Positions 14,878 to 38,071 of a DNA stretch of 38,181 bases are shown piece by piece. The DNA is from Limosilactobacillus kribbianus (GTDB lineage: Bacteria; Bacillota; Bacilli; Lactobacillales; Lactobacillaceae), in assembly GCF_026413145.1 (NCBI RefSeq), contig NZ_JAOVYZ010000013.1, positions 1 to 38,181 of the forward strand, in the 5' to 3' direction. The translations under genes and the position numbers were made by a program. Numbering within the stretch: the stretch's first letter is position 1; each line of letters opens with the position of its first letter. Under the pieces are notes generated by a model. That model worked only from the letters and a program-made list of their open reading frames with translations, was not told the origin of the DNA and made no database searches.

Positions 14878-15062
14878 AAAAAAGCGCCCCTGCCGACTGC
14901 AAGGGTGCAAATGCACGGTACCACCTTGGTATCTACTCATGATAACGTCAGACTCTGACGGGGACGCGTCCCAAACCTAAAAAGCGTCAATCGAGCACTC
15001 GTCATGCGGGCTTCCACCAACCCCGCTCGCTGTCTTTCCTAGTGGTCGAGCATTCTTTTATT
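14878..15062 (-). promoter_or_regulatory. T-box riboswitch (aspartate) upstream of aspS
   Basis: On the minus strand AAGGTGGTACCGTG (14927-14914) is the T-box that pairs with the NCCA end of uncharged tRNA. CAAGG/CCTTG plus GTGCA/TGCAC form the antiterminator. GCACCCTTGC/GCAGGGGCGC followed by Ts (14908-14878) is the competing terminator. Stem I is compact: TCGACCACT pairs with AGTGCTCGA with one mismatch, the distal loop carries GGTGGAAGCC, and a GAC codon sits on its 3' side at 15003-15001, the expected aspartate specifier. Uncharged tRNA-Asp would raise aspS transcription. Confidence 0.9.
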
Positions 15063-15181
15063 ATCGGTCATGAATATCAAATTTTCAGTTTTTACCTTAC
15101 TCGTCTCCCCTCCGAAAGTCAATACGCTGCCTTGCTTTTCCCCCGATTAACCTTAGAATTAGAGGAAAGGAAGTGGTTTTT

Positions 15182-26632: not shown

Positions 26633-26914
26633 ATGCCCATGAACGAACTAGACCAAGCACGTCAGTCAATTAACCAGCTCAACGCCGCGCTTGTCAAGCT
26701 ATTAGAAGAACGTTTCACCGCGGTAACCCAGGTCAACCATTATAAGGAAAAACACCACCTGCCCATCCTGGACGCCCAGCGGGAAAACGCCGTCCTAAAA
26801 CAGGTCGAAGCGGCAGTGGCCGATCCCCAAAAGGCACCCTTTATCGCCGCCGTTTTCCAAGAAATCATGCACCAATCACGCGCTTACGAAGAAGCATTAC
26901 GAAAGGATGAATAA
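26633..26914 (+). CDS. Chorismate mutase, AroQ class
   Basis: Converts chorismate to prephenate, the branch to Phe and Tyr. The 93-residue all-helical AroQ-type domain shows the pattern LDQARQSINQLNAALVKLLEER, then HYKEKHHLPILDAQRE, where basic and Glu/Gln residues form the active site. It is free-standing, with no fused dehydratase or dehydrogenase. AAAGGAG lies five bases before the ATG at 26633; a second ATG at 26639 is possible. The aroC ribosome binding site lies inside its last codons, so the two are coupled. Confidence 0.92.
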   Translation: MPMNELDQARQSINQLNAALVKLLEERFTAVTQVNHYKEKHHLPILDAQRENAVLKQVEAAVADPQKAPFIAAVFQEIMHQSRAYEEALRKDE

Positions 26915-26915
26915 A

Positions 26916-28082
26916 ATGAACTTTATTACCGCCGGAGAATCACATGGCCCACAGCTGACGGGAATCATCGAAGGAATCCCCGCCGGCTTGCATCTCGACG
27001 TCGACCAAATCAACGCGGCCCTCACCGCCCGCCAAGGCGGCTACGGCCGGGGCAACCGTCAGAAGATCGAGCACGACCAGGTCCAAATCGTCGGGGGTGT
27101 CCGCCACGGCGTCACCCTGGGCTCACCGATCGCCCTGGTCATTCAGAACCGCGACCACGCCAACTGGTCCCAGATCATGGACCCAATCAGCCCGGCCACC
27201 GCGACCAACACCGTTCGCAAAGTCGAGCACCCGCGGCCAGGCCATGCCGACCTGGTTGGGGGGATGAAGTACAACCATCGCGACCTGCGGAACGTCCTGG
27301 AGCGCTCGTCCGCCCGGGAGACCGCCATGCGGGTCGCCATCGGCAACGTCTGTGAACAGTTGCTTGCCGCCTTAGATATCCGCCTGGTTGGCTTTGTCCA
27401 GCAGGTTGGCTCGATCCACGTCGACGCCGAACCGCTGTTGGACGTTGCCCAGATTCAGCAAAAGATTCAGCAAAACGACCTGCGGATCCTCAACCAGGAT
27501 CAGGTTGAGTCGATTCACCAACTAATCGACTCAACGAAGCGCGCCGGGGATTCCCTGGGAGGACTGATCCGGGTAGTGGCTCAAAACGTGCCGGCCGGGC
27601 TGGGATCCTACATCAGCTGGGACACCAAGCTCGATGCCAAGCTCGCCGGGGCGGTCATGGGCGTCAACGCAATCAAGGGCGTCAGCTTCGGGGACGGCTT
27701 CGATGTTGCCAAGACCCCCGGCAGCCAGGTCATGGACGAGATTGACTACCAAGTCGGCCAGGGATTTTCCCGTCTGTCCGACCACCTCGGCGGCTTTGAG
27801 GGCGGAATGACCAACGGAATGCCGATCATCATTAACGCGGCGATGAAACCCATCCCGACCCTTTACAAGCCACTGCAGACCGTCGACATCAACACCAAGG
27901 AAAAGCTGAAGGCCAACGTGGAACGATCCGACGTCACCGCCATCGTGCCGGCCTCGCTCGTGGTCGAAAACGTGGTCGCAATCGAACTGGCCAAGGCGAT
28001 CACTGACACCTTCGAGGCCGCCAGTCTGACGCGGCTGCAGGCGGGGATCGCAGAATACCGCCACCAACTCGCAAATTTCTAG
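26916..28082 (+). CDS. aroC: Chorismate synthase
   Basis: Final shikimate step: EPSP to chorismate, needing reduced FMN. The 388-residue length is normal. Signatures are TAGESHGPQLTGIIEG, RQGGYGRG, HPRPGHADLVGGMKY and ERSSARETAMRVA. The ATG at 26916 is preferred, with AAAGGA eight bases upstream; the ATG at 26907 overlaps that site. It sits one base after the chorismate mutase stop. It is the third gene of the attenuated operon. Confidence 0.97.
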   Translation: MNFITAGESHGPQLTGIIEGIPAGLHLDVDQINAALTARQGGYGRGNRQKIEHDQVQIVGGVRHGVTLGSPIALVIQNRDHANWSQIMDPISPATATNTVRKVEHPRPGHADLVGGMKYNHRDLRNVLERSSARETAMRVAIGNVCEQLLAALDIRLVGFVQQVGSIHVDAEPLLDVAQIQQKIQQNDLRILNQDQVESIHQLIDSTKRAGDSLGGLIRVVAQNVPAGLGSYISWDTKLDAKLAGAVMGVNAIKGVSFGDGFDVAKTPGSQVMDEIDYQVGQGFSRLSDHLGGFEGGMTNGMPIIINAAMKPIPTLYKPLQTVDINTKEKLKANVERSDVTAIVPASLVVENVVAIELAKAITDTFEAASLTRLQAGIAEYRHQLANF

Positions 28083-28104
28083 TTATTTAGGGAGGCACCT
28101 TTTA

Positions 28105-29397
28105 ATGAAGAATTTACCAAGCGCACATTCGACCGGGCTGCACGGCAGTCTGGCTGTTCCCGGGGATAAAAGCATCTCCCACCGGGCCATCATGATCGGT
28201 GCCATCAGTCAGGGCACCACCACCATCCACCATTTTTTAAAGGGCAATGACTGCCTCTCCACCCTCCAGGCCTTCCGGGACCTCGGCGTCAAGATCGACA
28301 TGGTGAATGATGAAATCGTGGTTCACGGCACCGGCTTTGGCGGGCTCCAGGCACCAACGCACCCGTTGGACATGGGCAACTCGGGAACTACGACCCGCCT
28401 GATGATGGGCATCCTCGCGGGCAGCAATTTTTCGACCTCCCTCACCGGTGACCAATCGCTGGAGTCCCGCCCAATGAAGCGGGTCAGCGAACCCTTGAAG
28501 AGCTTCGGGGGCGAAGTCCAGCTCAGTCCTAAGGGAACCCTGCCGGCAACGGTTATCGGCCACCCGCTCCACGGGACCCACTACCAAATGAAGGTCGCCT
28601 CCGCCCAGGTGAAGAGCGCCCTTATCTTTGCCGCCCTCCAGGCTGCAGAGCCGTCAACCATCGTCGAAAAGCTGCCGACCCGGGACCATACCGAGATCAT
28701 GCTGCGTCAGTTTGGCGCGGACATTCAGACCAGTGGGAAGACCATCACGGTGACTCCCGGGGCACCGCTTGTGGGCCAGGAAATCACGGTACCCGGCGAC
28801 ATGTCCTCCGCCGCCTTCTTCCTGGTTGCCGCGGCAATCGTTCCCCACTCCAAGGTCACGCTGACCGGGGTGAACCTGAACCCCACCCGGACAGGCATTC
28901 TGACGGTGCTCAAGAAGATGGGCGCCCAGCTGGAGATCACCCCGCTTGACGGCCCCGGCGAACCCCAGGGTGACATTACCATTGCAACCAGCACGCTCAA
29001 GCCAATCGAACTCGGGGCCGAAGACGTTCCCGCCGTGATTGATGAACTGCCGCTGGTAGCCTTGCTTGCCGCCTGTGCAAACGGGCGCTCCCGGATTACC
29101 GGGGCCCAGGAGCTGCGGGTCAAGGAGACCGACCGGATCAAGACGGTGGTGGCGGAGCTCCGCAAGCTCGGCGTCGCAGTGACCGAACTGCCGGACGGCA
29201 TGGTGATCGACGGCCGGCCGGACTGGGACATCCAGGATTCGCACCTGGATAGCTACGGCGACCACCGGCTGGGGATGATGGATGCGATTGCCGCTTTGAA
29301 GAGTCCGCAGTCCCTGCAGCTGCAAAATGCGGCGGCCGTGGCCGTTTCCTACCCGACCTTTTTCGACGATCTTACTAAACTGCTGGGTCAAAACTAA
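28105..29397 (+). CDS. aroA: EPSP synthase (3-phosphoshikimate 1-carboxyvinyltransferase)
   Basis: Adds enolpyruvate from PEP to shikimate-3-phosphate. The 430-residue two-domain enzyme has VPGDKSISHRAIMIGA (catalytic Lys), MGNSGTTTRLMMG at the PEP site, SLESRPMKRV, and the C-terminal VKETDRI and YGDHRLGMM segments. The GNSGTTTRL and RPMKR spelling fits the class II branch common in Firmicutes (inference). AGGGAGG precedes the ATG. It lies 22 bp after aroC. Confidence 0.97.
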   Translation: MKNLPSAHSTGLHGSLAVPGDKSISHRAIMIGAISQGTTTIHHFLKGNDCLSTLQAFRDLGVKIDMVNDEIVVHGTGFGGLQAPTHPLDMGNSGTTTRLMMGILAGSNFSTSLTGDQSLESRPMKRVSEPLKSFGGEVQLSPKGTLPATVIGHPLHGTHYQMKVASAQVKSALIFAALQAAEPSTIVEKLPTRDHTEIMLRQFGADIQTSGKTITVTPGAPLVGQEITVPGDMSSAAFFLVAAAIVPHSKVTLTGVNLNPTRTGILTVLKKMGAQLEITPLDGPGEPQGDITIATSTLKPIELGAEDVPAVIDELPLVALLAACANGRSRITGAQELRVKETDRIKTVVAELRKLGVAVTELPDGMVIDGRPDWDIQDSHLDSYGDHRLGMMDAIAALKSPQSLQLQNAAAVAVSYPTFFDDLTKLLGQN

Positions 29398-29430
29398 GCT
29401 CTACAACAGGAAGCGAGGTGCATTTTTTCT

Positions 29431-29934
29431 ATGCGAATTATTTTAATTGGCTTCATGGGAAGCGGGAAGACCACCGTCAGCACCCTGCTGGCCGACCAAC
29501 TCCACCTCCCCGTCACCGACCTGGACCAGGCGATTGAACAGTCCAGCGGGAAATCAATTCCGCAGATTTTTCAAGAGAGTGGCGAGGAGGGCTTCCGGAC
29601 GGTCGAGCACCAGACCCTGACCACGGTCCTCCGGGGGCGCGACGGGATCCTCGCTACGGGCGGCGGCACCCCACTGCGGGCCGACAATCGCCGGGCGCTG
29701 GCGGCGGACCCCGCCCCCGTCATCCTGCTGCACGCCAGCCCGGAAGAAACGGCACGGCGAATCCAGCACAATGGCGAACGCCCCTTGGCCGATGCGCTTG
29801 ACACGGCTGGACTGGCGGCACTGCTGGCCAAGCGCCAGGCCCGCTACGACGAGTGTGCCGACTTTACCATCGACACGGACGGCCGGACGCCCCAGGAGAT
29901 TGTTGATCAGATCATTGGTCTTATTAAAGACTAG
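29431..29934 (+). CDS. aroK: Shikimate kinase
   Basis: Phosphorylates shikimate with ATP. The 167-residue P-loop enzyme has Walker A GFMGSGKTT, the shikimate-binding DLDQAIE and GEEGFRTVE segments, the GILATGGGTPL loop and an NGERPLAD lid. A GAGGTG site is spaced ten bases from the ATG. It is the last gene of the plus operon and ends nine bases before the shared terminator. Confidence 0.96.
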   Translation: MRIILIGFMGSGKTTVSTLLADQLHLPVTDLDQAIEQSSGKSIPQIFQESGEEGFRTVEHQTLTTVLRGRDGILATGGGTPLRADNRRALAADPAPVILLHASPEETARRIQHNGERPLADALDTAGLAALLAKRQARYDECADFTIDTDGRTPQEIVDQIIGLIKD

Positions 29935-29991: not shown

Positions 29992-30759
29992 TTATATCCT
30001 GAGATCGTTTAGAATCCGCTCCAGCTCGTCCACGGCGATCTGGCCAGGTGCCGATGCCTGTGCCTGTCCCACGCTGGCAAAGGTCAGGCAAGAGCCAAAC
30101 AGCTCGCCGCTGACCCGGGTGATCTTTCCCAGATCGCCCATCGCCATGGTGATTAAAGGCAGTCGACCGTGAAGGTGGTAGTCCTGGGTCAGCTCCAGTA
30201 CCTCCAGGACGTCGGCGGGGCGGTGCGGCATCACCGCGAGTTTGGCGATGTCCGCCCCCGCCGCTTCCATCTGGGTAAGCCGTTGCCTGAGGAGCGCCAG
30301 GCGCGGCGTCTTGGTAAAGTCATGGCTGCTCATGATGACCTTGATCTGATGATCGTGGGCCAGGGCGGTCAGCGCGGTGATGCACTCATTGGAATGGGCC
30401 AGCAGCTCCAGGTCGACCAGGTCCGTGCTCCCCGTCGCCAGCAATGGGCGGTACAGCTCCTGGTAGCGCTCGTCGCTGACCTGAACCTGACCGCCCTCCT
30501 CCTTGGTCCGCAGCGTCACGAGCAAAAGGCGCGGCGAAATCACTGCTTGGATTCGTCGCGCCGTCTTGGCGATTGCTTGCGGATCCACTGTTCCCTTCAG
30601 GAAGTCGATCCGCCATTCAATTACGTCCACCGCTGGCAGGGCGGCCTGCTGTGCCTGGGCGATCGCCGCCGCCATTGTGGCAGCGGTCACCGGAACGGCA
30701 ATCTTCGGGCGACCAGCCCCGAATACCGTTTCCTTAATCGTTAGTGTTTTTTTAGTCAT
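29992..30759 (-). CDS. aroD: 3-dehydroquinate dehydratase, type I
   Basis: Dehydrates 3-dehydroquinate to 3-dehydroshikimate. The 255-residue type I enzyme works through a Schiff base. Seen are DVIEWRIDFL, VIMSSHDFTKTP with the catalytic His, and GADIAKLAVMP with the Schiff-base Lys. The ATG at 30759 has GAGGAGG six bases upstream; longer starts lie within aroE. The start overlaps the aroE stop by eight bases. It is the last gene of the minus operon. Confidence 0.96.
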   Translation of the reverse strand: MTKKTLTIKETVFGAGRPKIAVPVTAATMAAAIAQAQQAALPAVDVIEWRIDFLKGTVDPQAIAKTARRIQAVISPRLLLVTLRTKEEGGQVQVSDERYQELYRPLLATGSTDLVDLELLAHSNECITALTALAHDHQIKVIMSSHDFTKTPRLALLRQRLTQMEAAGADIAKLAVMPHRPADVLEVLELTQDYHLHGRLPLITMAMGDLGKITRVSGELFGSCLTFASVGQAQASAPGQIAVDELERILNDLRI

Positions 30760-31636
30760 GACAATCCTCCTCAAAGAGCAGGTGGCGAACCTCTTCGACC
30801 GGCATCTGCTTGCCGGTCCAGAGTTCAAAGGCCGCCGCCCCCTGTTCAATAATCATCCCAATACCATTCAGACAGTGGCGAACCCCCGCTTGGCGGGCCA
30901 CCTTCAGCAGCTTGGTTTCCCGCGGGGCGTAAACAGCATCGAAGACGATCATGTCCGAGTGAAACCAGGCCGGGTCATTAACGACCGCCTCGTTTTTGTG
31001 CGGCTTCATCCCCAGGCTGGTCGTGTCGGCATAGATGTCCGCCTCCTTCAACGCAGCTTGCAATTCGTCCTGGTCCTCTAGGGCATGCAGGCTGGCCCGG
31101 CAGTTCGTCTGCGCATTAATCAGTGCCACGATTTTCTGCGCCTGGACCCACTTGGCACCGTGCTGGCGGTTGAAGAGCACAATCTCGCCGACACCGTCAA
31201 GGGCGGCTTGGACCGCCACGGCCGTCCCCGCGCCCCCGGCACCGGCAAGTACCATCTTGCGGCCCGTAATGTCGAGCCCCTCATCCTGAAGTGCTCGCAT
31301 GAAGCCGATTCCGTCGGTAATGTGGCCCGTCAAGACGCCGTGATCGTTGACGACCGTGTTGACCGTCCCCGTTAGCCGGGCCGCCGGTGAGAGCCGGTCC
31401 AGGAGGGGGACAATGGCCTGCTTATTAGGCATTGAGACGTTGACGCCCCGCATGTTGAGCGTGCGGATCGACTGAACGGCGCTGGCCAATTCCTCGTTGC
31501 CAACCTCAAAGGCGAGGTAGACGTAGTTAAGGCCTAGCCGCCGAAAGGAATAGTTGTGCATGCGGGGCGAAAGGGTGTGGCCTATCGGGGTCGCAAAGAT
31601 TCCCAGCAGGTCGGTGTGGCCGTCGATCTGCATCAT
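30752..31636 (-). CDS. aroE: Shikimate dehydrogenase, YdiB-like
   Basis: Reduces 3-dehydroshikimate to shikimate with a nicotinamide cofactor. The 294 residues are closer to YdiB (about 288) than to classical AroE (about 270). Motifs are ATPIGHTLSPRMHN, MRGVNVSMPNKQ with the catalytic Lys, INTxVND-type TVNTVVNDHG, HITDGIGFM and the loop LAGAGGAGTAVAVQ. The C-terminal FELWTGKQMP also resembles YdiB. The ATG at 31636 has GGGAGAG six bases upstream; a second ATG follows directly. It starts one base after the stop of a 31-residue frame, so it is probably coupled to it. Confidence 0.95.
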   Translation of the reverse strand: MMQIDGHTDLLGIFATPIGHTLSPRMHNYSFRRLGLNYVYLAFEVGNEELASAVQSIRTLNMRGVNVSMPNKQAIVPLLDRLSPAARLTGTVNTVVNDHGVLTGHITDGIGFMRALQDEGLDITGRKMVLAGAGGAGTAVAVQAALDGVGEIVLFNRQHGAKWVQAQKIVALINAQTNCRASLHALEDQDELQAALKEADIYADTTSLGMKPHKNEAVVNDPAWFHSDMIVFDAVYAPRETKLLKVARQAGVRHCLNGIGMIIEQGAAAFELWTGKQMPVEEVRHLLFEEDCHD

Positions 31637-31637
31637 C

Positions 31638-31733
31638 CTAATCTCTCCCTTCCAGGTCGTTTTCGAGGTCTGCAGCAACTAACTTCAGTTCCTGTTCGCT
31701 GGCTTGGCGCATCAGTTCTTGTTCCTTATTCAT
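31638..31733 (-). CDS. 31-residue acidic small protein between the 136-residue gene and aroE
   Basis: A short frame with a strong AGGGAGGGG site before its ATG at 31733. It begins MNKEQELMRQASEQELKLV and is predicted to form one charged helix. Its stop leaves one base before the aroE ATG, and the aroE binding site lies in its last codons. It may be a coupling cistron for aroE or a small regulatory peptide. No family is recognised. Confidence 0.65.
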   Translation of the reverse strand: MNKEQELMRQASEQELKLVAADLENDLEGRD

Positions 31734-31749: not shown

Positions 31750-32160
31750 CTAGGCGGCTTGTTCAATGATGACTTGGGCGGTAGCAATGTTAGCACCGAA
31801 CAGGTCGGTCAAAACGTCGTGAATGCGACGATTGATGATCGCTTGTTCCTGCTGACTTAATTGGTGAAGTGGCTGGTAAACGAAGTTAATCTCGGCCACC
31901 AGGCTGGCACGAATCCCGGCCAGGCAAGCACTGATCTGGGCATCAATGCGTTCGGCAAATTCGAATGGGGTGAGACGTTGGCCACCCTCATCGAGGTGGA
32001 AGAAGACCGGTCGCTGGTTGGCCAGGGCCAGCTTAATCTGCTGGTTGGCCGCTACGGAGTTCGTGCTCCCCTCGACCCAGGCCAAGTCGGAAATGTGTTC
32101 TTCTTGGCCGGCATTATTCTTAACGACGATTCCGTTGGTGTTGAGTTCTTCAATGATCAT
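31750..32160 (-). CDS. Unknown protein embedded in the aromatic operon
   Basis: A 136-residue soluble protein (MIIEELNTNGIVVKNNAGQE...). The N-terminal third is probably beta-rich, and a Gln-rich helical C-terminal half follows (QPLHQLSQQEQAIINRRIHD). No signal peptide, membrane segment or known catalytic motif is seen. AAGGAG lies eight bases before the ATG; the gap to aroB is 12 bp. I do not recognise the family. The position between aroB and aroE suggests a part in the pathway, for example as a partner or regulator of a neighbour (inference). Confidence 0.75.
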   Translation of the reverse strand: MIIEELNTNGIVVKNNAGQEEHISDLAWVEGSTNSVAANQQIKLALANQRPVFFHLDEGGQRLTPFEFAERIDAQISACLAGIRASLVAEINFVYQPLHQLSQQEQAIINRRIHDVLTDLFGANIATAQVIIEQAA

Positions 32161-32172
32161 AGTTATCGCTCC

Positions 32173-33246
32173 TTATTCTCGTGGTAGTTGCAGTGTGGCA
32201 GCAATTTTTTCTTCAGGAACGGTCAGGATAGCCGGTTCACCGATCGTGTGAACGTAAACCAGGTTTAAGTGGCCGTTATGATTTTTCTTGTCGTGTTTAA
32301 TCTTATCGAGCACCGCTGGCGACTTCAGTAAGGGTGAGTCCACCGGCAGGCCGACAGTGGCGAAACGATCGCGAACCTGTTCGGTCACCCCCGGTGCGGT
32401 TTTACCGGTGGCTTCAAAGGCTTGGCAGATGGCAACGGTGCCGATGCTGACGGCTTCACCGTGGCGTAACTCGCCGGCCGCTAAGGCTTCGACGGCGTGC
32501 CCGATCGTGTGGCCAAAGTTCAGTAGTTGGCGTTGGCCCCCCTCCTTTTCGTCCGCCATGACAATGTCAGCCTTGAATTGGATGGCCCCCTCGCTCAACT
32601 CGGTTGCGTGCCGGAAAATGTCGGCTGGGGTTTGAATTTCGGTAATTAATTTCCAGAAGTCCCCACCGGTCATGGCCGCGACCTTGACGATTTCACCATA
32701 ACCTTCGACCAGGTCCCGTTTTTCCAAGGTGGTTAACGTTGTCGGGTCGATGATCACCAGGTCGGGTTCGTAAAAGGCCCCGACGATATTCTTGGTGGTT
32801 CCGAGGTCAACGGCGGTCTTGCCACCGACCGAGCTGTCAACCTGGGCTAGCAGCGAGGTCGGAATTTGAATCAGTGCGATCCCCCGCATGTAAGTGGCGG
32901 CCAGGAAGCCGGCCAGATCGCCGGTCACCCCACCGCCTAGGGCAATCACCCCGTCGTCCCGGTTGAAGTTGTCGGCCACCAATTGCTCGGTCAGCTTTTG
33001 CAGCTGCGGAAGGGACTTGGAGGCCTCCCCCGCCGGGAACTGGTAGCAATGAACCGTGAAGCCACTCTTCTTCAGCTCGGCGGCCAGTTGTGCTTGGTAA
33101 AGCGGGGCAACGTTGCTGTCGCTGACGATGGCAATCTTGCGCGGCGACCAGACACCGGCGACCAGGCTACCCGCCTGTTTCAGCAAGTCTTTTTCGATCA
33201 GAACATCGTATTGCTTGGTGCTCAGTTTAACCGTAATCTTCTTCAT
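32173..33246 (-). CDS. aroB: 3-dehydroquinate synthase
   Basis: Cyclises DAHP to 3-dehydroquinate using NAD and a metal ion. The 357-residue enzyme has ALGGGVTGDLAGFLAATYMRG, IPTSLLAQVDSSVGGKTAVD, the metal-site segment LVEGYGEIVK and the metal-binding NFGHTIGHAVE. AAGGGG lies upstream of the ATG at 33246, 12 bp after aroF. It is the second gene of the minus operon. Confidence 0.97.
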   Translation of the reverse strand: MKKITVKLSTKQYDVLIEKDLLKQAGSLVAGVWSPRKIAIVSDSNVAPLYQAQLAAELKKSGFTVHCYQFPAGEASKSLPQLQKLTEQLVADNFNRDDGVIALGGGVTGDLAGFLAATYMRGIALIQIPTSLLAQVDSSVGGKTAVDLGTTKNIVGAFYEPDLVIIDPTTLTTLEKRDLVEGYGEIVKVAAMTGGDFWKLITEIQTPADIFRHATELSEGAIQFKADIVMADEKEGGQRQLLNFGHTIGHAVEALAAGELRHGEAVSIGTVAICQAFEATGKTAPGVTEQVRDRFATVGLPVDSPLLKSPAVLDKIKHDKKNHNGHLNLVYVHTIGEPAILTVPEEKIAATLQLPRE

Positions 33247-33258
33247 TCGCTCATCCCC

Positions 33259-34254
33259 TTAATCTGCCGCGGTGAGGGCCGTCCGTACTGCGTTGACCTT
33301 CTTGACCATTTCCTGGAATTGGTCCGGTTTCAGTGCCTGGGGACCATCGGAGAGGGCGTGGGCCGGATCGTCGTGGATTTCGACAATCAGGCCATCCGCC
33401 CCGGCGGCGACCCCAGCCAGGGCCAGCGGTGTCACGAATTCGGTGTGGCCGGCCGCGTGGCTCGGGTCGACAATTACCGGGTAGTGGGTCAGTTTCTGCA
33501 GGACCGGCACGACGCCGACGTCAAAGGTGTTCCGGGTGTACTTGTTGTCGAAGGTCCGAATTCCCCGCTCGGCAATCATGATTTGGTGATTGCCCCCCGC
33601 GGCGATGTACTCGCTGGCGTTTAGGATGTCATCAACGGTGGCGGACATCCCCCGCTTCAGCATCACCGGCTTGTTGGTCTTGCCGACCGCCTTGAGAAGG
33701 GAGAAATTCTGCATGTTCCGCGCCCCAATTTGGAAGATGTCGGTAAATTCCTCAACCAATGGAACGTGTTCGTCGTCCATGACCTCGGTGATGACGTCGA
33801 GGCCAAAGTGATCGGCCGCCTGGCGCAGAGCAACCAGCCCCTCTTTACCCAGTCCCTGGAATGAGTATGGTGAGGTCCGCGGCTTGAAGGCGCCGCCCCG
33901 GAGAACGGTGGCGCCGGATTCCTTAACAACCGCCGCCATCTTCATCACGTGGTCGGCCGATTCAACCGAGCACGGCCCGGCCATCAAAGCGAAGTGGCCG
34001 CCGCCGATGATTGAATGGGCGGTTTTGATCACCGTGTCCTCAGGGTGGAAGAGCCGGGAAGCCTGGACCGCCTTGGGAACGTCGGTGATCAGTTCTGCAG
34101 CGGCTTCCCGTTGTTCCGTCGTCAGGTCGGCGGGTGCAATCCCCTGAACGGCCACCCGATTGCCGTGGACAAAGACCTGATGGTGATCGCCAAAGCGTTC
34201 CTGCAACTGCTTAATAGTTTCGGTGGTCTGTTCTTCGTGGAGTACAATAATCAT
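33259..34254 (-). CDS. aroF: DAHP synthase, type I-beta with N-terminal regulatory domain
   Basis: First and committed shikimate step: PEP plus erythrose-4-phosphate to DAHP. Of its 331 residues, about 1-75 form a ferredoxin-like domain ([20 protein letters not shown]) that in relatives mediates feedback inhibition by Tyr or Phe. The barrel has [41 protein letters not shown] and [12 protein letters not shown]. The ATG at 34254 has AGAAGGG nine bases upstream; the ATG at 34263 overlaps it. It is the first structural gene after the attenuator at 34283-34476. Confidence 0.96.
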
Positions 34255-34282
34255 CTCAATCATCCCTTCTCAAATTCTTGGT

Positions 34283-34320
34283 AAAAAAATATCCTCACGG
34301 TGTGAAAACACTGTGAGGAT
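34283..34320 (-). terminator. Attenuator terminator before aroF
   Basis: On the minus strand ATCCTCAC pairs with GTGAGGAT and an inner GTG with CAC, with one A-C mismatch; seven Ts follow. It ends 29 bases before the aroF ATG. Confidence 0.92.
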
Positions 34321-34476
34321 AATGAGCATTACGTAAATGCTAGTGGAGTTTTCCCGACCACACAGTGTTTGGAATTTACTGTGTAATCGGTAATCATGTT
34401 ATTATCGACCACACAGGCTGTCAAAGGCTAGAGCCCGCAACCCGTGTGGTGTGAACCCTAGTGCACTCGATAATAA
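34283..34476 (-). promoter_or_regulatory. Ribosome-stalling attenuator of the aroF-aroB-aroE-aroD operon
   Basis: Segment 1 TTATTATCGA (34476-34467, over the Phe/Tyr/Tyr codons) pairs perfectly with segment 2 TCGATAATAA (34408-34399). It is stacked on ACCACACGGG (34450-34441) with CCTGTGTGGT (34417-34408). Segment 2 CTGTGTGGTCGATAAT (34416-34401) can instead pair with segment 3 ATTACCGATTACACAG (34394-34379). Segment 3 CCGATTACACAGT (34390-34378) can also pair with segment 4 ACTGTGTGGTCGG (34366-34354). Segment 4 AAACACTGTG (34370-34361) can pair perfectly with CACAGTGTTT (34315-34306) in the terminator. Stalling gives 2:3 and antitermination; free passage gives 1:2, 3:4 and termination. Confidence 0.85.
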
Positions 34477-34502
34477 AACGCATACCAGTTAATCATTGTC
34501 AT
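34458..34502 (-). CDS. Aromatic leader peptide MTMINWYAFYYRVH
   Basis: A 14-residue frame with an AAAAAAGGAG site nine bases upstream of its ATG. Five of its residues are aromatic and closely spaced: Trp-Tyr-Ala-Phe-Tyr-Tyr (codons TGG TAT GCG TTT TAT TAT), including all three aromatic amino acids. The stop TAG is at 34460-34458. The Phe/Tyr codons themselves form the 5' arm of the first RNA stem, the classic design for a stalling sensor. A start at the third codon (ATG at 34496) is possible but less well spaced. Confidence 0.87.
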   Translation of the reverse strand: MTMINWYAFYYRVH

Positions 34503-34545
34503 GATTCAAAACTCCTTTTTTCTTTTCTTCCTTGACGTTGGCTAA

Positions 34546-34574
34546 AGTATATCTTCTTTTGCTTTCCCACGTAA
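34546..34574 (-). promoter_or_regulatory. Promoter of the minus-strand aromatic operon
   Basis: TATACT (34551-34546) is a good -10 box. The -35 at 17 bp is TTACGT (34574-34569), which is poor. Two in-phase copies of TAAGGGAAA (plus strand, 34572-34593, 11-bp period) overlap and extend upstream of the -35, as an activator site might. RNA would start near 34539, 37 bases before the leader ATG. Confidence 0.55.
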
Positions 34575-34986: not shown

Positions 34987-35325
34987 TTAGTATGTAGCGA
35001 AATTAATCTTTTTAACCTTTTCAATAAATTCAGTAGGTGCTTGGTCAACAACTTTAAACTTCCGATCGCTTAGATCTAGCGTTCGTTCTTGATCAAGTTC
35101 AACCACCCCATGAATGTTATCTAATGCAGGTAGCTTCAAATGTAATGGAAATGGCTTTTCATTTGATGTGATTGGGCACACCTTCACCATCCCACCGCAC
35201 AACTGATTAAAGTCACTATTGGACATGATAAACGCAGGGCGATATCCTTTTTGTTCATGCCCATTAGTTGGGTTGAAGTCAACCATTACAATCTGACCTT
35301 GCTGCAGATCCTTGTAAGAATTCAT
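34987..35325 (-). CDS. MazF/PemK-family toxin
   Basis: A 112-residue protein of the MazF/PemK mRNA interferase fold. It has GQIVMVDFNPTNGHEQKGYRPAFIMSN at the start (family GxRPxxV-like region), VCPITSNEKPFPLHL and LDQERTLDLSDRK. Such toxins cut mRNA at short sequences and arrest growth unless neutralised. GGGGGAA lies eight bases before the ATG. It follows the antitoxin gene by 64 bp, rather than overlapping it as many pairs do. Confidence 0.92.
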   Translation of the reverse strand: MNSYKDLQQGQIVMVDFNPTNGHEQKGYRPAFIMSNSDFNQLCGGMVKVCPITSNEKPFPLHLKLPALDNIHGVVELDQERTLDLSDRKFKVVDQAPTEFIEKVKKINFATY

Positions 35326-35389
35326 AAACGAATTCCCCCTCTAAGAAATATTTTATTGCCATCGCCGAGTATCGAACAAGCTCCGGCAA

Positions 35390-35662
35390 TTAAAATATTT
35401 CTTTACCTTGTGGTTGGCCCCAATCAACTTCCTTATTCTTTGGCCCATTTTTGAAATATGCTTCGGCATCAAAGCCGTCAAACATTTTTCTTAATGGGCT
35501 TTCTTTTTTTTCTGGGGTTAATATGATTTTGTTATCTTCTACTTTGTAGTCTAGCTTGTCATCATTCTCTAACTTAAATGAATCTAGTATCTTTTTAGGT
35601 ATTCTTACCGACAAACTGTTACCCCACCTTGATAGGGTAAGTGTTCCTTTCTGTGCGCTCAT
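35390..35662 (-). CDS. AbrB/MazE-family antitoxin
   Basis: A 90-residue partner of the toxin. The N-terminal swapped-hairpin DNA-binding domain reads LTLSRWGNSLSVRIPKKIL (about residues 8-27), typical of MazE/SpoVT-AbrB. The acidic, poorly ordered C terminus (FDGFDAEAYFKNG, KEVDWGQPQGKE) would wrap the toxin. AGGAGG lies seven bases before the ATG. It probably represses its own promoter at the inverted repeat upstream. Confidence 0.9.
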   Translation of the reverse strand: MSAQKGTLTLSRWGNSLSVRIPKKILDSFKLENDDKLDYKVEDNKIILTPEKKESPLRKMFDGFDAEAYFKNGPKNKEVDWGQPQGKEIF

Positions 35663-35677
35663 GAGAATTCCTCCTTA

Positions 35678-35736
35678 GATGTAATAGCCATGCATCATTA
35701 CATCTTTTATTATACGCCTTTATTCCATCTTGTCGA
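35678..35736 (-). promoter_or_regulatory. Toxin-antitoxin promoter and probable operator
   Basis: On the minus strand TCGACA (35736-35731), 16-bp spacer and TATAAT (35714-35709). The inverted repeat GATGTAAT/ATTACATC (35678-35685 and 35697-35704) covers the start point and fits an antitoxin operator. GTATCGACA occurs twice around the -35. Confidence 0.65.
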
Positions 35737-35759
35737 TACTTTGTATAATGTCGATACGT

Positions 35760-35785
35760 AAAAAGCCCCAGCAACAATTGCTGGA
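35760..35785 (-). terminator. Endolysin terminator
   Basis: CCAGCAA pairs with TTGCTGG around CAA, and on the minus strand GGGGCTTTTT follows. It lies about 40 bp after the endolysin stop. Confidence 0.8.
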
Positions 35786-35822
35786 TCTTGTGTTAACAGG
35801 AGAGGAGACGTTTCGCCCCCTT

Positions 35823-36912
35823 CTAAATTTGAATTGTTTGTCCTACATAAATTACGTTTGGATTGCTGATCCCGTTCTTCTGGGCCAATGCCTGCCAGGT
35901 TGTATGGAACGCACTAGCGATGCCGGATAAGGTATCACCATTTTTGACCGTGTAGGCATTAGACTGACCGCCACCGGCAATAACGATCTTCTGGCCTACG
36001 TAGATCACATTCGGGTTAGCGATATGGTTCAGGTTGCCTAGACTCGAAACGGTCGTCCCGAACTTAGCCGCAATACCGCTGAGCGTATTGCCGTTCTGAA
36101 CATAGTACGTGTTCTGCGCGTTTGGCTGACCTACTACCTTGAGCACCTGACCAACCCGAATCAAGTTTGGATTGCCGATCCCGTTAAGGGCGGCTAAGTT
36201 CTGGTAGGTTGTGCGGTACTTTGCCGCAATCCCAGACAGCGTATCGCCATACTGAACAGTATAAGTACCAGTAGCTGGGTGCCCAACATGCTGAGCAGGC
36301 TTTGGCGCTGGTACCGCGACAGTTGGCACACTCCCACTAGCCGATCCAGTGGTAAAGACTCCATCAAAGTCCAAGCTGGTGTCAATCCCCATGATCCCGT
36401 GATCAGAATACTGCCAAGCAGCGGCGTTGTCGATACCCAGACTAGTGATCAAGCCAGATCTTCCGGCTGCCAAAGCCGTGACTGTTCAGAACTCCACCAG
36501 TAAAGAAAGACTTCATTGAGTAGATCCCAGTCTGCTTGTAGCCGAGTGCCTCCACTTCTTGTAAGAAGGCCAATGAAGCAGCTTGATAGTCAGCGGCAGA
36601 GTGAACTTCGGCATCGTCAATCATTAGGGTGTCATCGTACATGCCAAACCGCTTGGCCACCTTGACGAAGAACCGGGCTTCGTTCTGAGCGTCAGCAGTC
36701 GAAGTATAGCGGGCAAAGTGGTAGCAGGCTACCCGTAAGCCAACTGCAAGGGAATTACGAATTTGGTTAGCGGCCTTCGGATTGATGTAAGCAGAACCGT
36801 CCTCAGACCCTTCCGTTAGCTTAACGACTACCCCCATAGGCCCCTCCTGGAAAAAGGCAACAGTGTCTTCCTGGTAGCCTGAAACGTCAATAAATGGATT
36901 ACGTACTGGCAT
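35823..36912 (-). pseudogene. Prophage endolysin (GH25 lysozyme plus three LysM), frameshifted
   Basis: The N-terminal frame (36912 to 36442) encodes a GH25 muramidase: FIDVSGYQEDTVAFFQ, VACYHFARY, MIDDAEVHSAADY. The second frame resumes with [20 protein letters not shown], the end of the GH25 barrel, then three LysM repeats ([19 protein letters not shown] and similar) that bind peptidoglycan. The frames change between about 36438 and 36456; removing one base would give a continuous 362-residue enzyme of normal plan. As written, translation stops after IWLDH, before the last barrel strand and the wall-binding repeats. Confidence 0.85.
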
Positions 36913-36914
36913 TA

Positions 36915-37309
36915 TTATGCGACCTCCTTTGGATCAATTGCAACGGCGGTGCCTGCAGCAGGCTTAGCGTTTGATGTTAAGTCCGACTTCTCGTAGGCAG
37001 CTTGAATTTTGCTGACTGAATTGCTTTGATGTTGACATTGGTAAATTCTTGTTCATCCAGTGCAGATTGTACAATTTGAGTTGCTTGAGCAAACTTCTCA
37101 GTACCGGACATATTCTTGCCAACTAGCGAATTAACGGCGATTTCAGAGAGCTGGTCAATCAGATTCCACAGTGCTCGAGAACGTTCAGTTTGAGCATGGA
37201 GAACCTTGCTGTAAATCAATGTCTGTGCCTCTTTCAGGCCAAAATAAAAGACCGTTGAGATAACGGCCGTCATGATATAGCTTGGAATTGCGTTAATGAT
37301 TGTGCTCAT
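36915..37309 (-). pseudogene. Phage holin, LLH family, frameshifted near its end
   Basis: One N-terminal membrane segment (IPSYIMTAVISTVFYFGL) is followed by a long helical cytoplasmic part (QTERSRALWNLIDQLSEIAV), as in LLH-type holins. As written the frame ends at 36977. If one base is missing near 37015-37018, the frame continues VSKIQAAYEKSDL and ends IDPKEVA at 36915, three bases before the lysin ATG, giving about 131 residues. The restored end and its tight spacing to the lysin argue that this is the original gene. Confidence 0.75.
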
Positions 37310-37702
37310 GTTGTTTCTCTAAATAATCTTTGCTGAGTTTATAAATATGATCCTTTACCCATGATGGTAGCGGTAATCCCATTTGGCCCCAGTTTTCGAT
37401 AATAGAAACCAGGTAAAATAGGAAAAGAAAAAGACAAGCGAATCTCCTGCTTGTCCTAATCCACATAATTCCAACATTGGATAAACGGTTAAGGTCAAAA
37501 TAATCACTGCAGCATGCTTCAAAAGTCCACCCGTTCCTTTACTAGAAATTGTCCGGTGCGTAATGATACTTTTGAAAAATCCAGTTACAATATCAATCAC
37601 AATCGCCAATACAAACCATTCAATCAGTACGTTGTCGATCATGCTGGCAAAGTATTGAATGTATAGAATGTGCTGTGGCGGTTGTGTGAGAAGTAAGTGC
37701 AT
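37293..37702 (-). pseudogene. Phage holin (pfam05105-like), frameshifted
   Basis: Three membrane segments are visible (LIEWFVLAIVIDIVTGFF, AAVIILTLTVYPMLELC, SLVFFFSYFTWFLL), with the ISSKGTGGLLKHAAV loop typical of the family. As written the frame ends at 37355. If one base is missing near 37399-37408 it continues IIENWGQMGLPLPSWVKDHI, the family's usual end, and stops at 37293 after overlapping the next gene's start by 17 nt. The restored length is about 136 residues. AAGGAGGTGA precedes the ATG at 37702. Confidence 0.75.
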
Positions 37703-37786
37703 TTACAATGATTCACCTCCTTGAGGGTAAAATAAAAACGCCCTGCGGATGACACTTTTTATGTCTGTTAGACAAAAATATAATTT

Positions 37787-38071
37787 TTAAATTGATTCAC
37801 TTTCTTCAAATTGATTTATATAGTAGTTCCTTCTAACTTTAGGCTTACCAATCATTGTCATTGTTTTGCGACCATTGTCTCCTAAATAATGGTAAAACAT
37901 TCTTTCACCTTTTGAAGTAGTAAATTCTATGTCTAAAGCTTTTACAATAGGCGTGAATTTGTCTAATTCTTTTCCGTCCTTATTTGTAATTTTTCGACCT
38001 TCACATCCATAAATAAAAGGAATACATTGAACTATATCTCCTGCATTAATTCTACTAATGGCAGATTGCAA
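37787..38071 (-). CDS. Hypothetical protein, probably 5'-truncated by an IS element
   Basis: A 94-residue frame with no recognised domain (VQCIPFIYGCEGRKITN, MFYHYLGDNGRKTMTMIG). It can only start at a TTG at 38071, with no ribosome binding site, directly after the IS30 transposase end and in the same frame as it. The natural start was probably removed by the insertion. It is AT-rich, like other phage or mobile DNA. Confidence 0.5.
   Translation of the reverse strand: MQSAISRINAGDIVQCIPFIYGCEGRKITNKDGKELDKFTPIVKALDIEFTTSKGERMFYHYLGDNGRKTMTMIGKPKVRRNYYINQFEESESI

Follow-up and report, generated by a model that had tools for sequence, protein, structure and literature searches.

The aro operon in a 38,181-nt stretch of Limosilactobacillus kribbianus DNA (contig NZ_JAOVYZ010000013.1, positions 1 to 38,181, below referred to as the window) is preceded by a leader that is very probably a ribosome-mediated transcription attenuator controlled by translation of a short leader peptide. 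In our full explanation, to which we assign a probability of about 0.85, this attenuator acts on the aro operon through a relay of RNA segments (X1, X2 and B5). Tyr and Phe, rather than Trp, would be the signal, which is a prediction, as are the stalling, the order of folding and the read-through.

Attenuators of the enterobacterial trp, pheA and his operons combine a leader peptide rich in codons for the product, mutually exclusive helices and an intrinsic terminator, with stalling leading to read-through. In E. coli trp, a ribosome at the stop codon masks segment 2. Many amino-acid genes of Firmicutes are under T-boxes, which usually perform amino-acid sensing in this group, and a leu/phe leader is known from L. 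lactis.

We propose that a ribosome would translate the 14-codon leader and, if tRNA-Tyr and tRNA-Phe are charged, would leave the Tyr codons, cover X1 and be released; B5:B3 (together with A:B'), C:D and E:F would then form and transcription would end at the U-tract. If Tyr or Phe is short, the ribosome would wait with its front edge before X1. X1:X2 would form and put B5 out of play, leaving B3/B' free for C and D free for E, and D:E would block the terminator so that the operon is read. The leader would thus be an alternating chain, in which X1:X2, B3:C and D:E stand for antitermination and B5:B3, C:D and E:F for termination.

Results

A leader frame and a chain of alternative helices precede the aro operon

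The frame, the pairings and the terminator were all found where a preliminary description of this DNA had placed them. On the minus strand, a Shine-Dalgarno sequence leads a 14-codon frame (ATG at 34502, stop at 34458), a short frame with regulatory codons for products of the pathway. The stretches TTATTATCGA (34476-34467) and TCGATAATAA (34408-34399) are exact complements. Three further pairings were read by eye, with the duplexes computed: 15 of 16 positions match between segments 2 (34416-34401) and 3 (34394-34378), all 13 between segment 3 and segment 4 (34366-34353), and all 10 between AAACACTGTG (34370-34361) and the terminator sequence CACAGTGTTT. The terminator consists of the arms TATCCTCACAGTGT and ACACCGTGAGGATA followed by seven U (34321-34283).

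The layout is nevertheless not one of four segments, as had been described, since the stem X1:X2 and the hairpin B5:B3 are also part of the leader region. X1:X2 had been overlooked and was first noticed by eye among the first 32 leaders collected. The order is A (aromatic codons), X1, B5, X2, B3, B', C, D, E and F (Table 1). The minimum free energy of the leader stretch was -84.8 kcal/mol as compared with -50.5 (SD 4.0) for 200 dinucleotide shuffles (z -8.55); because of this value and because the same arrangement is conserved in other genera, the fold is not due to chance.

Table 1. Features of the leader and of the operon that it precedes
Feature	Position	Strand	Evidence
Presumed -10 box TATACT of the leader promoter	34546..34551	-	TATACTTTAGCC identical in sister genome G041
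Shine-Dalgarno AAAGGAGT	34511..34518	-	SD-like motifs also at leaders of relatives
Leader peptide frame MTMINWYAFYYRVH, stop TAG	34458..34502	-	Aromatic frame conserved, e.g. MSFSKASFSYYYYQPR in G014
Segment A, over Phe/Tyr/Tyr/Arg codons; partner B'	34467..34476	-	A:B' paired in 97.7% of cells in alignment A3
Segment X1 AGGGTTC, starting inside the stop codon, 10 nt past the last Tyr codon; partner X2	34453..34459	-	
Segment B5 ACCACACGGGTTG; partner B3	34438..34450	-	B5:B3 paired in 87.8% of cells
Segment X2 GGGCTCT, within the B5:B3 loop; partner X1	34430..34436	-	Covariation test
Segment B3 CAGCCTGTGTGGT; partner B5 (termination) or, with B', C (antitermination)	34408..34420	-	Covariation
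Segment B' TCGATAATAA, exact complement of A	34399..34408	-	Sequence and covariation
Segment C ATTACCGATTACACAGT; partner B3/B' or D	34378..34394	-	B3:C paired in 81.8%, C:D in 77.7% of cells
Segment D (AAACACTGTGTGGTCGGG); partner C or E	34353..34370	-	Covariation; own versus cross-genus arms
Segment E, terminator 5' arm	34308..34321	-	Terminator finder; own versus cross-genus arms
Segment F, terminator 3' arm	34290..34303	-	Terminator finder; own versus cross-genus arms
Terminator U-tract, 7 U	34283..34289	-	Sequence
DAHP synthase (aroF/aroG type), first regulated gene	33259..34263	-	Pfam DAHP_synth_1, E 2.7e-77
3-Dehydroquinate synthase, aroB	32173..33246	-	Pfam DHQ_synthase
136-aa frame within the aro operon	31750..32160	-	No Pfam match
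Shikimate dehydrogenase, aroE	30752..31678	-	Pfam Shikimate_dh_N
Type I 3-dehydroquinase, aroD	29992..30849	-	Pfam DHquinase_I

The leader is conserved across much of the order

Relatives of the DAHP synthase were found in 150 of the 397 genomes of the window's family and in 7 of the 50 genomes of the genus, the window included. Comparison of the aroF upstream regions of the genus revealed an aromatic leader frame with an SD-like motif, which our leader finder demands, in 7/7, about 240-290 nt upstream. At the DNA level, a search of the 49 other genomes of the genus gave a long match in two only (G041, 98%; G014, 75%); the remaining matches were short, with E values of 0.002 or worse, and mostly due to chance.

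A covariance model restricted to the helices A:B', B5:B3 and C:D (R1, built from 21 leaders) matched 75 of the 397 family genomes and 12 of 40 genera. We considered that the leader might be absent from most genera and rejected this: the operon starts with other genes there and the leader lies ahead of those, where R1 located it at a distance of about 1-3 kb from the DAHP gene. The new R1 matches that were read also carry a leader frame, e.g. MTITSNAQLNSYYYYWFT in G282. Across the order, a later model (R3) at E <= 0.01 matched 159/395 genomes and 51/80 genera, and in scans of single families it matched 100 of 105 genomes of family f3 and 13 of 18 of f2, the weakest matches being counted unread and some, e.g. 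G028, possibly due to chance. Families f3 and f4 are presumably Enterococcaceae and Streptococcaceae, respectively. The leader is not a lone case, as some 200 genomes hold a match and relatives are in print as a small RNA or as riboswitch candidates.

An SD-like motif with a frame was present in 79 of 80 leaders, the SD pattern having been loosened for that count; the exception, L066, has no start codon in its frame, lies at the end of a MAG contig and was left out of the counts. An intrinsic terminator was found between frame and first gene in 79/79 leaders (those of L091, L212 and L224 were first assigned to C:D and then reset by hand). In a further set, the aromatic frame was present at 40/40 loci (longer in L326), and in most f3 loci the frame ends approximately in LNNYYFSYFR. 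Counting codons from a key codon that is Tyr or Phe by definition, the preceding codon (key-1) encodes Tyr in 69 of the 76 non-paralogue leaders (TAC 41, TAT 28). This set leaves out the paralogues L227-L229; C and D were set by hand in nine of its leaders (L100, L108, L112, L114, L121, L200, L201, L205 and L219), and the key codon of L069 was placed one Phe too late. The genes after the leaders, which we take from sequence motifs to be those named, are aroE, DAHP synthase, transketolase, aroK, an aminotransferase or the lipoprotein of a TrpX-like ABC transporter.

In many leaders (L073-L086 and the f3 loci), C:D is followed by a U-run (24/76 and, in the second set described below, 42/77, by a loose count), so that two terminators in series may exist there.

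Both sets of helices co-vary

Covariation was assessed in an alignment of 46 leaders (A3), 26 of which were brought in by R1 alone. The models contain A:B', B5:B3 and C:D, and hence only X1:X2, B3:C, D:E and E:F are independent of how the leaders were found; X1:X2 was left out of R1 and still holds in the leaders that R1 found. X1:X2 was paired in 86.9% of cells versus 76.9% after shuffling (0/500 shuffles as high), with 38 cells changed on both sides versus 12.2, and B3:C in 81.8% versus 77.9%. Taken jointly, A:B', B5:B3 and C:D were paired in 86.7% versus 75.8%, with two-sided change in 27 of 32 pairs. For X1:X2, for B3:C and for the joint set, none of 500 shuffles reached the observed paired percentage, number of two-sided cells or covariation score. 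Two of the five measures were within the shuffle range for X1:X2 and B3:C, namely the pairs with two-sided change (281/500 and 48/500 shuffles as high, respectively) and the further pair types (51/500 and 113/500). When partners were slid against each other, all tested helices fell to 24-49% paired.

Furthermore, the own arms of a leader paired more strongly than the cross-genus mean in most of the 76 leaders: 70 for A:B', 72 for X1:X2, 61 for B3:C, 60 for C:D, 70 for D:E and 76 for E:F. This test comprised these six helices and not B5:B3, and its fixed B' interval takes in only part of the A:B' helix of the window leader (-7.2). Both the shuffle and the cross-genus controls are uncorrected for relatedness. 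The leader helices thus co-vary, X1:X2 and B3:C included, and a conserved antiterminator that excludes the terminator is provided by B3:C and D:E.

The predicted antiterminator responds in computed folds to a ribosome on the aromatic codons

RNAs ending 4 nt after C were folded with everything up to 10 nt past the A-site codon hidden, and the probability that C pairs upstream, P(B3:C), was taken as a measure of the antiterminator seed; the values depend on the front edge of the ribosome being taken as 10 nt past the A codon. Among the 76 leaders, P(B3:C) was 0.26 without ribosome, 0.57-0.68 with the A site at key-4 to key (0.66 at key-1), 0.47 at key+1, 0.39 at key+2 and 0.40 at the stop codon. 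A stall at key-1 gave a higher value than no ribosome in 73/76 leaders and than the stop codon in 69/76.

The calculation was repeated on a second set of 77 leaders from other families (f2, f3, f4, f5, f7 and f9) and three more genera, comprising 37 of the 40 loci of one batch and 40 of another. Left out were L301, in which the finder missed the frame (by eye MKQHQTQLNTFNFSYFRRCL), and two loci nearly identical to L269 (L270 and L272); the automatic frame pick was wrong for L270 and L301. Five of the 77 had been used in training R3, a model without X1:X2 or B3:C. P(B3:C) was 0.81-0.89 over key-5 to key, then 0.64, 0.52 and 0.41 at key+1, key+2 and key+3. The value at the key codon exceeded that without ribosome in 70/77 leaders and that at key+3 in 75/77, and the no-ribosome value (0.49) exceeded that at key+3. 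The claim that a stalled ribosome favors the pairing of segments 2 and 3, and hence antitermination, is backed by this computed response.

In the window itself, P(B3:C) with successive codons in the A site was 0.21 (TGG), 0.84 (TAT), 0.74 (GCG), 0.86 (TTT), 0.86 (TAT), 0.26 (last TAT), 0.23 (CGA), 0.27 (GTG), 0.30 (CAC) and 0.72 (TAG). Tyr and Phe are therefore the predicted signals and Trp is not. Of the tRNAs proposed in the preliminary description as the sensed species (Tyr, Phe and perhaps Trp), the first two are thus retained as predictions and the last is dropped, TGG giving 0.21 versus 0.74-0.86 for the next four codons. The value at the stop codon implies that a ribosome lingering there would be read as starvation, so that release must be fast; stop-codon values of 0.50-0.74 were also obtained in genera g1, g15, g22, g30 and g38. 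When the RNA included D, equilibrium folding favored C:D in every ribosome state, and the switch therefore needs a co-transcriptional order of events.

A probable relay across the distance between the ribosome and B3

Segment 2 (B3) starts 38 nt past the stop codon in the window, too far for the kind of masking that a terminating ribosome exerts in E. coli trp. This is where the plain four-segment trp/phe design of the preliminary description fails, and we think it likely that the X1/X2/B5 relay fills the gap between ribosome and B3.

A free finder placed X1 9-11 nt after the key codon in 46/79 leaders and 14 nt after it in the 7 of genus g33; in 11/79, the window included, it returned B5:B3 instead, and the remaining 15 gave a helix 4-8 nt or, in L069, 14 nt after that codon. 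In the second set, X1 starts 8-10 nt past the key codon in 66/77. The position of the stop codon is more variable, 1-5 codons after the key codon in the first set and 2, 5 or 13 in the second. By eye, X2 abuts B5, overlapping it in g38, g2, g32, g15, f3 and f4; in f3, X1 upstream and B3 downstream have almost the same 13 nt as their partner. X1:X2 therefore competes with B5:B3.

We considered the possibility that the leader is after all a plain trp-like attenuator of four segments, in which the stalled ribosome masks A only and thereby frees B', X1:X2 being an RNA polymerase pause hairpin that synchronizes ribosome and polymerase. A:B' is indeed the best conserved helix, and two leaders before aminotransferase genes (L228 in G143 and L229 in G115) are a minimal version without X1, B5 and X2. 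In these two, B3 comes immediately after the stop codon, within reach of a terminating ribosome, which would mask it in the manner of E. coli trp. If masking of A were sufficient, holding X1 unpaired should leave the response to a stall intact. Yet, P(B3:C) fell from 0.66 to 0.35 at key-1 in the first set (lower in 73/76) and from 0.81 to 0.39 at the key codon in the second (lower in 75/77; 0.39-0.44 over key-5 to key), though A was masked. Moreover, X2 overlaps or equals B5 by eye in g38, f3 and f4, and a pause hairpin needs no such overlap. We therefore consider this explanation unlikely. In our models, the antiterminator seed requires that X1 be able to pair, and it forms mainly while the A site is in the aromatic block.

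The order X1-B5-X2-B3 also brings to mind an H-type pseudoknot, in which X1:X2 and B5:B3 would jointly make up a stable termination structure. In g1 and g13, X2 does not overlap B5, and the two stems could coexist there as a pseudoknot. The overlap seen by eye in g38, g2, g32, g15, f3 and f4 makes the stems mutually exclusive in those groups, and we judge a pseudoknot quite improbable as compared with a relay of competing helices.

Relation to known leaders and RNA families

No Rfam family, and no leader family, matched the window leader in either gathering or E-value mode; a match to IsrM (E 0.94) was discarded as chance. With the enterobacterial trp, pheA and his attenuators, the leader shares the product codons, the exclusive helices and the terminator, the alternating helix chain of the his type being nearest in layout. 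It differs from them in having no sequence relation (no Rfam match) and in that it would act via X1, X2 and B5. It belongs to a leader family of its own with a probable relay, and to the enterobacterial class by mechanism, not by descent.

The window did not match RF02863 (sRNA_2410), nor did four other leaders of family f1 or 20 f1 loci (0/20). At gathering, this model matched 10 of 20 loci, 17 of which were from outside f1, and 5 of 7 f2/f3 loci were over the gathering score. The matches, in f2, f3, f5, f7 and f9 loci, start at the last leader codons. RF02863 derives from a list of E. faecium small RNAs, in a paper that does not use the word 'leader' (PMC5593968). Two elements that precede ABC transporter operons in Streptococcus agalactiae, gbs2033 and gbs1262, were called new riboswitches; the gbs2033 type also precedes E. 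faecium aroFBC-tyrA, RNA-seq showed that a single start site gives rise to a terminated and a long RNA, and 'leader peptide' is absent from the main text of the report (PMC4448216). Judged by the gene context given there, gbs2033 would be the same element as the window-type leader, in which case the terminated and long RNAs are experimental support for attenuation.

Before aroF of Acholeplasma, a DAHP synthase gene, a motif that combines a terminator with a short frame bearing Phe codon(s) (uORFC-13-1) has been proposed to act by attenuation; it comprises 24 sequences, from Acholeplasma and environmental samples only (PMC8632094). Ribosome-mediated attenuation has also been described in Firmicutes for other genes, with a His leader before hisS/hisZ of bacilli (PMC2965389) and an ilv leader in S. 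aureus (PMC5794164), a relay being absent from the parts of these sources used here. In the openly licensed PMC literature, we found no description of the relay, and searches with the leader peptide strings and element names yielded no other paper.

In line with the preliminary description, neither the T-box motif nor the RF00230 model matched at the window leader. In the genera that seemed to lack the leader, no T-box stood in its place (0/20 loci at the strict cut-off of 93 bits), and a motif search in the same genera gave one full motif, L110. At this locus (G082, genus g34), about -450 to -200 of the DAHP synthase gene, a terminator-like hairpin accompanies the T-box motif GGGTGGTACCGCG, and next come a Tyr-rich leader frame (MFKNLSLTLYQGVYLYRYYTNTIYACVN) and a second hairpin of this kind, which may make two attenuators in tandem; G082 is absent from the R1 matches. 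In S. suis, trpX is reported to be under a T-box (PMC9382623), and the transporter is therefore not under the present leader everywhere. That the operon is under T-box or repressor control and the leader a remnant is hardly credible: this trpX, of a gene type found after these leaders elsewhere, the 26 T-box matches of the window genome and a palindrome upstream of the -10 box speak for it, and the lack of a T-box at the leader and the six helices that hold their own pairing better than cross-genus arms, which is unexpected for a remnant, speak against it.

The trpB motif and a probable modular chassis

The trpB motif (RF04312, SRC-39-1) has been presented as a strong riboswitch candidate, classic attenuation being 'not ruled out' in the published account, with a terminator, an antiterminator in the right shoulder of P1, ABC transporter genes downstream and more than 900 representatives (PMC11109978). 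Its matches start after X1 and the leader frame, and judging from these starts, its P1 seems to be B5:B3. The window leader did not match RF04312, and sub-threshold matches fell inside the leaders L242 and L268. In family f4, RF04312 was found in 25/87 genomes at E <= 1e-3, 7 being over cut-off. A clear-type leader frame was present at 26 of 29 loci (30 minus L351, an incomplete locus), 11 being aromatic (L372 mixed Trp/Tyr), 10 His and 5 Trp. Two more frames were recognized by eye, MLKSNFKSWQSWHF in L348, where the finder gave none, and MNFVQMRHHHLHR in L360, where it picked wrongly; L367, with no frame by the finder, looks like a false match. X1:X2 comprised 8-18 pairs by the finder at f4 loci.

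TrpX-like lipoprotein genes follow the Trp leaders (SWQSWR) and amino-acid permease genes the aromatic leaders (TVFYFWRR); behind the His leaders (HHHLHR), the genes that were read are transporter genes. One f4 locus (L363) combines an RF04312 match with the f3-type peptide QLNKYYFSYFR and so links both. P(B3:C) without ribosome, with the ribosome on the codons and at key+3 was 0.23, 0.70-0.74 and 0.31 for Trp leaders and 0.19, 0.40-0.54 and 0.27 for His leaders; the response was weaker for aromatic ones (0.37, 0.47-0.50 and 0.37). The idea that loss of leader translation switches this compact f4 form on was rejected, as folding gave 0.19-0.37 without ribosome.

Outside f4, contig C51 of the window genome (G000:C51:55929-56023, L378) holds an RF04312 match of 42.4 bits, against a cut-off of 59, with a leader (MKKFQSHNVNICWQSR) bearing a single Trp before what looks like a TrpX-type gene. 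In L376 (family f15), an HHHH leader with a sub-threshold trpB-motif match precedes a hisZ-like gene, which may link the trpB-motif chassis with the His leader of hisS/hisZ in bacilli. Across the class, RF04312 matched in 7/101 genomes, and one of the 8 loci (L379) was without a frame.

Based on their architecture, the Tyr/Phe, Trp and His versions are probably one modular chassis. We lean towards regarding this chassis, across the order and in other Bacilli, as a peptide-reading counterpart of the T-box, in which relay and terminator are kept and the leader codons set the amino acid that is sensed. Tyr/Phe codons would serve aro genes and some TrpX-like transporters, Trp codons other TrpX-like transporters, and His codons histidine-type transporters and the hisZ-like gene. 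If true, this would give a single explanation for sRNA_2410, the gbs2033 element and the orphan trpB-motif candidate. The reading by the ribosome would be inverted with respect to E. coli trp, the signal being that X1 is not reached rather than that a segment is masked. It would also offer a testable answer as to the signal of the trpB motif, namely translation of Trp, His or Tyr/Phe codons and not a free metabolite, and the leader would be a codon-programmable switch for lactic acid bacteria. According to a survey from 2010, no amino-acid leader peptide system had been shown outside Proteobacteria and Actinobacteria (PMC2965389); the present leader, very probably such a system, is conserved in a large part of an order of bacteria from food and gut.

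These observations also bear on the possibility that the leader is a metabolite-binding riboswitch for aromatic amino acids and the short frame incidental. Structural conservation reaching beyond the codons, together with a terminator, would fit a riboswitch, and the gbs2033/gbs1262 elements and the trpB motif were published as candidates. If the frame were incidental, it should not be kept, yet SD-like motif, frame and aromatic block were present at 40/40 loci, the first being demanded by the finder. Before other genes, Trp or His codons replace the aromatic ones on what is apparently one and the same chassis, and the position of X1 tracks the key codon and not the stop. Furthermore, no invariant aptamer-like core was seen (2 invariant columns in A3), and the leader-codon logic accounts for the data without an aptamer. 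We therefore regard a riboswitch as very improbable, and retain attenuation by leader translation.

Genomic surroundings of the leader

The window genome gave one match to the leader models R1-R3, by construction, as the window was in the training sets. A second, convergent aro cluster lies at 26633-29934 on the plus strand (chorismate mutase, aroC, aroA and aroK by Pfam), and the R1 search gave no leader match before it. At E <= 0.01, 7 of the 26 T-box matches of the genome were over cut-off. One below it, at 14898-15073 on the minus strand (32 bits, E 1.8e-5), lies at the start of an aspartyl-tRNA-synthetase-like gene.

The identity with the sister genome G041 (95% over 1.5 kb) breaks off at 34555, four bases past the -10 box in the upstream direction. 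In relatives, G041 included, TTGACA is found 17 nt upstream of this box; the -35 region is different in the window, an 18-nt palindrome (TTTCCCTTACGTGGGAAA) occupying the place of TTGACA, with prophage-like frames beyond. An insertion may thus have altered the promoter of the window leader. Upstream of the junction, at 34987-38071 on the minus strand, are frames that we take to be MazF-like, AbrB-like, LysM and lysozyme-like (in overlapping registers) and holin-like.
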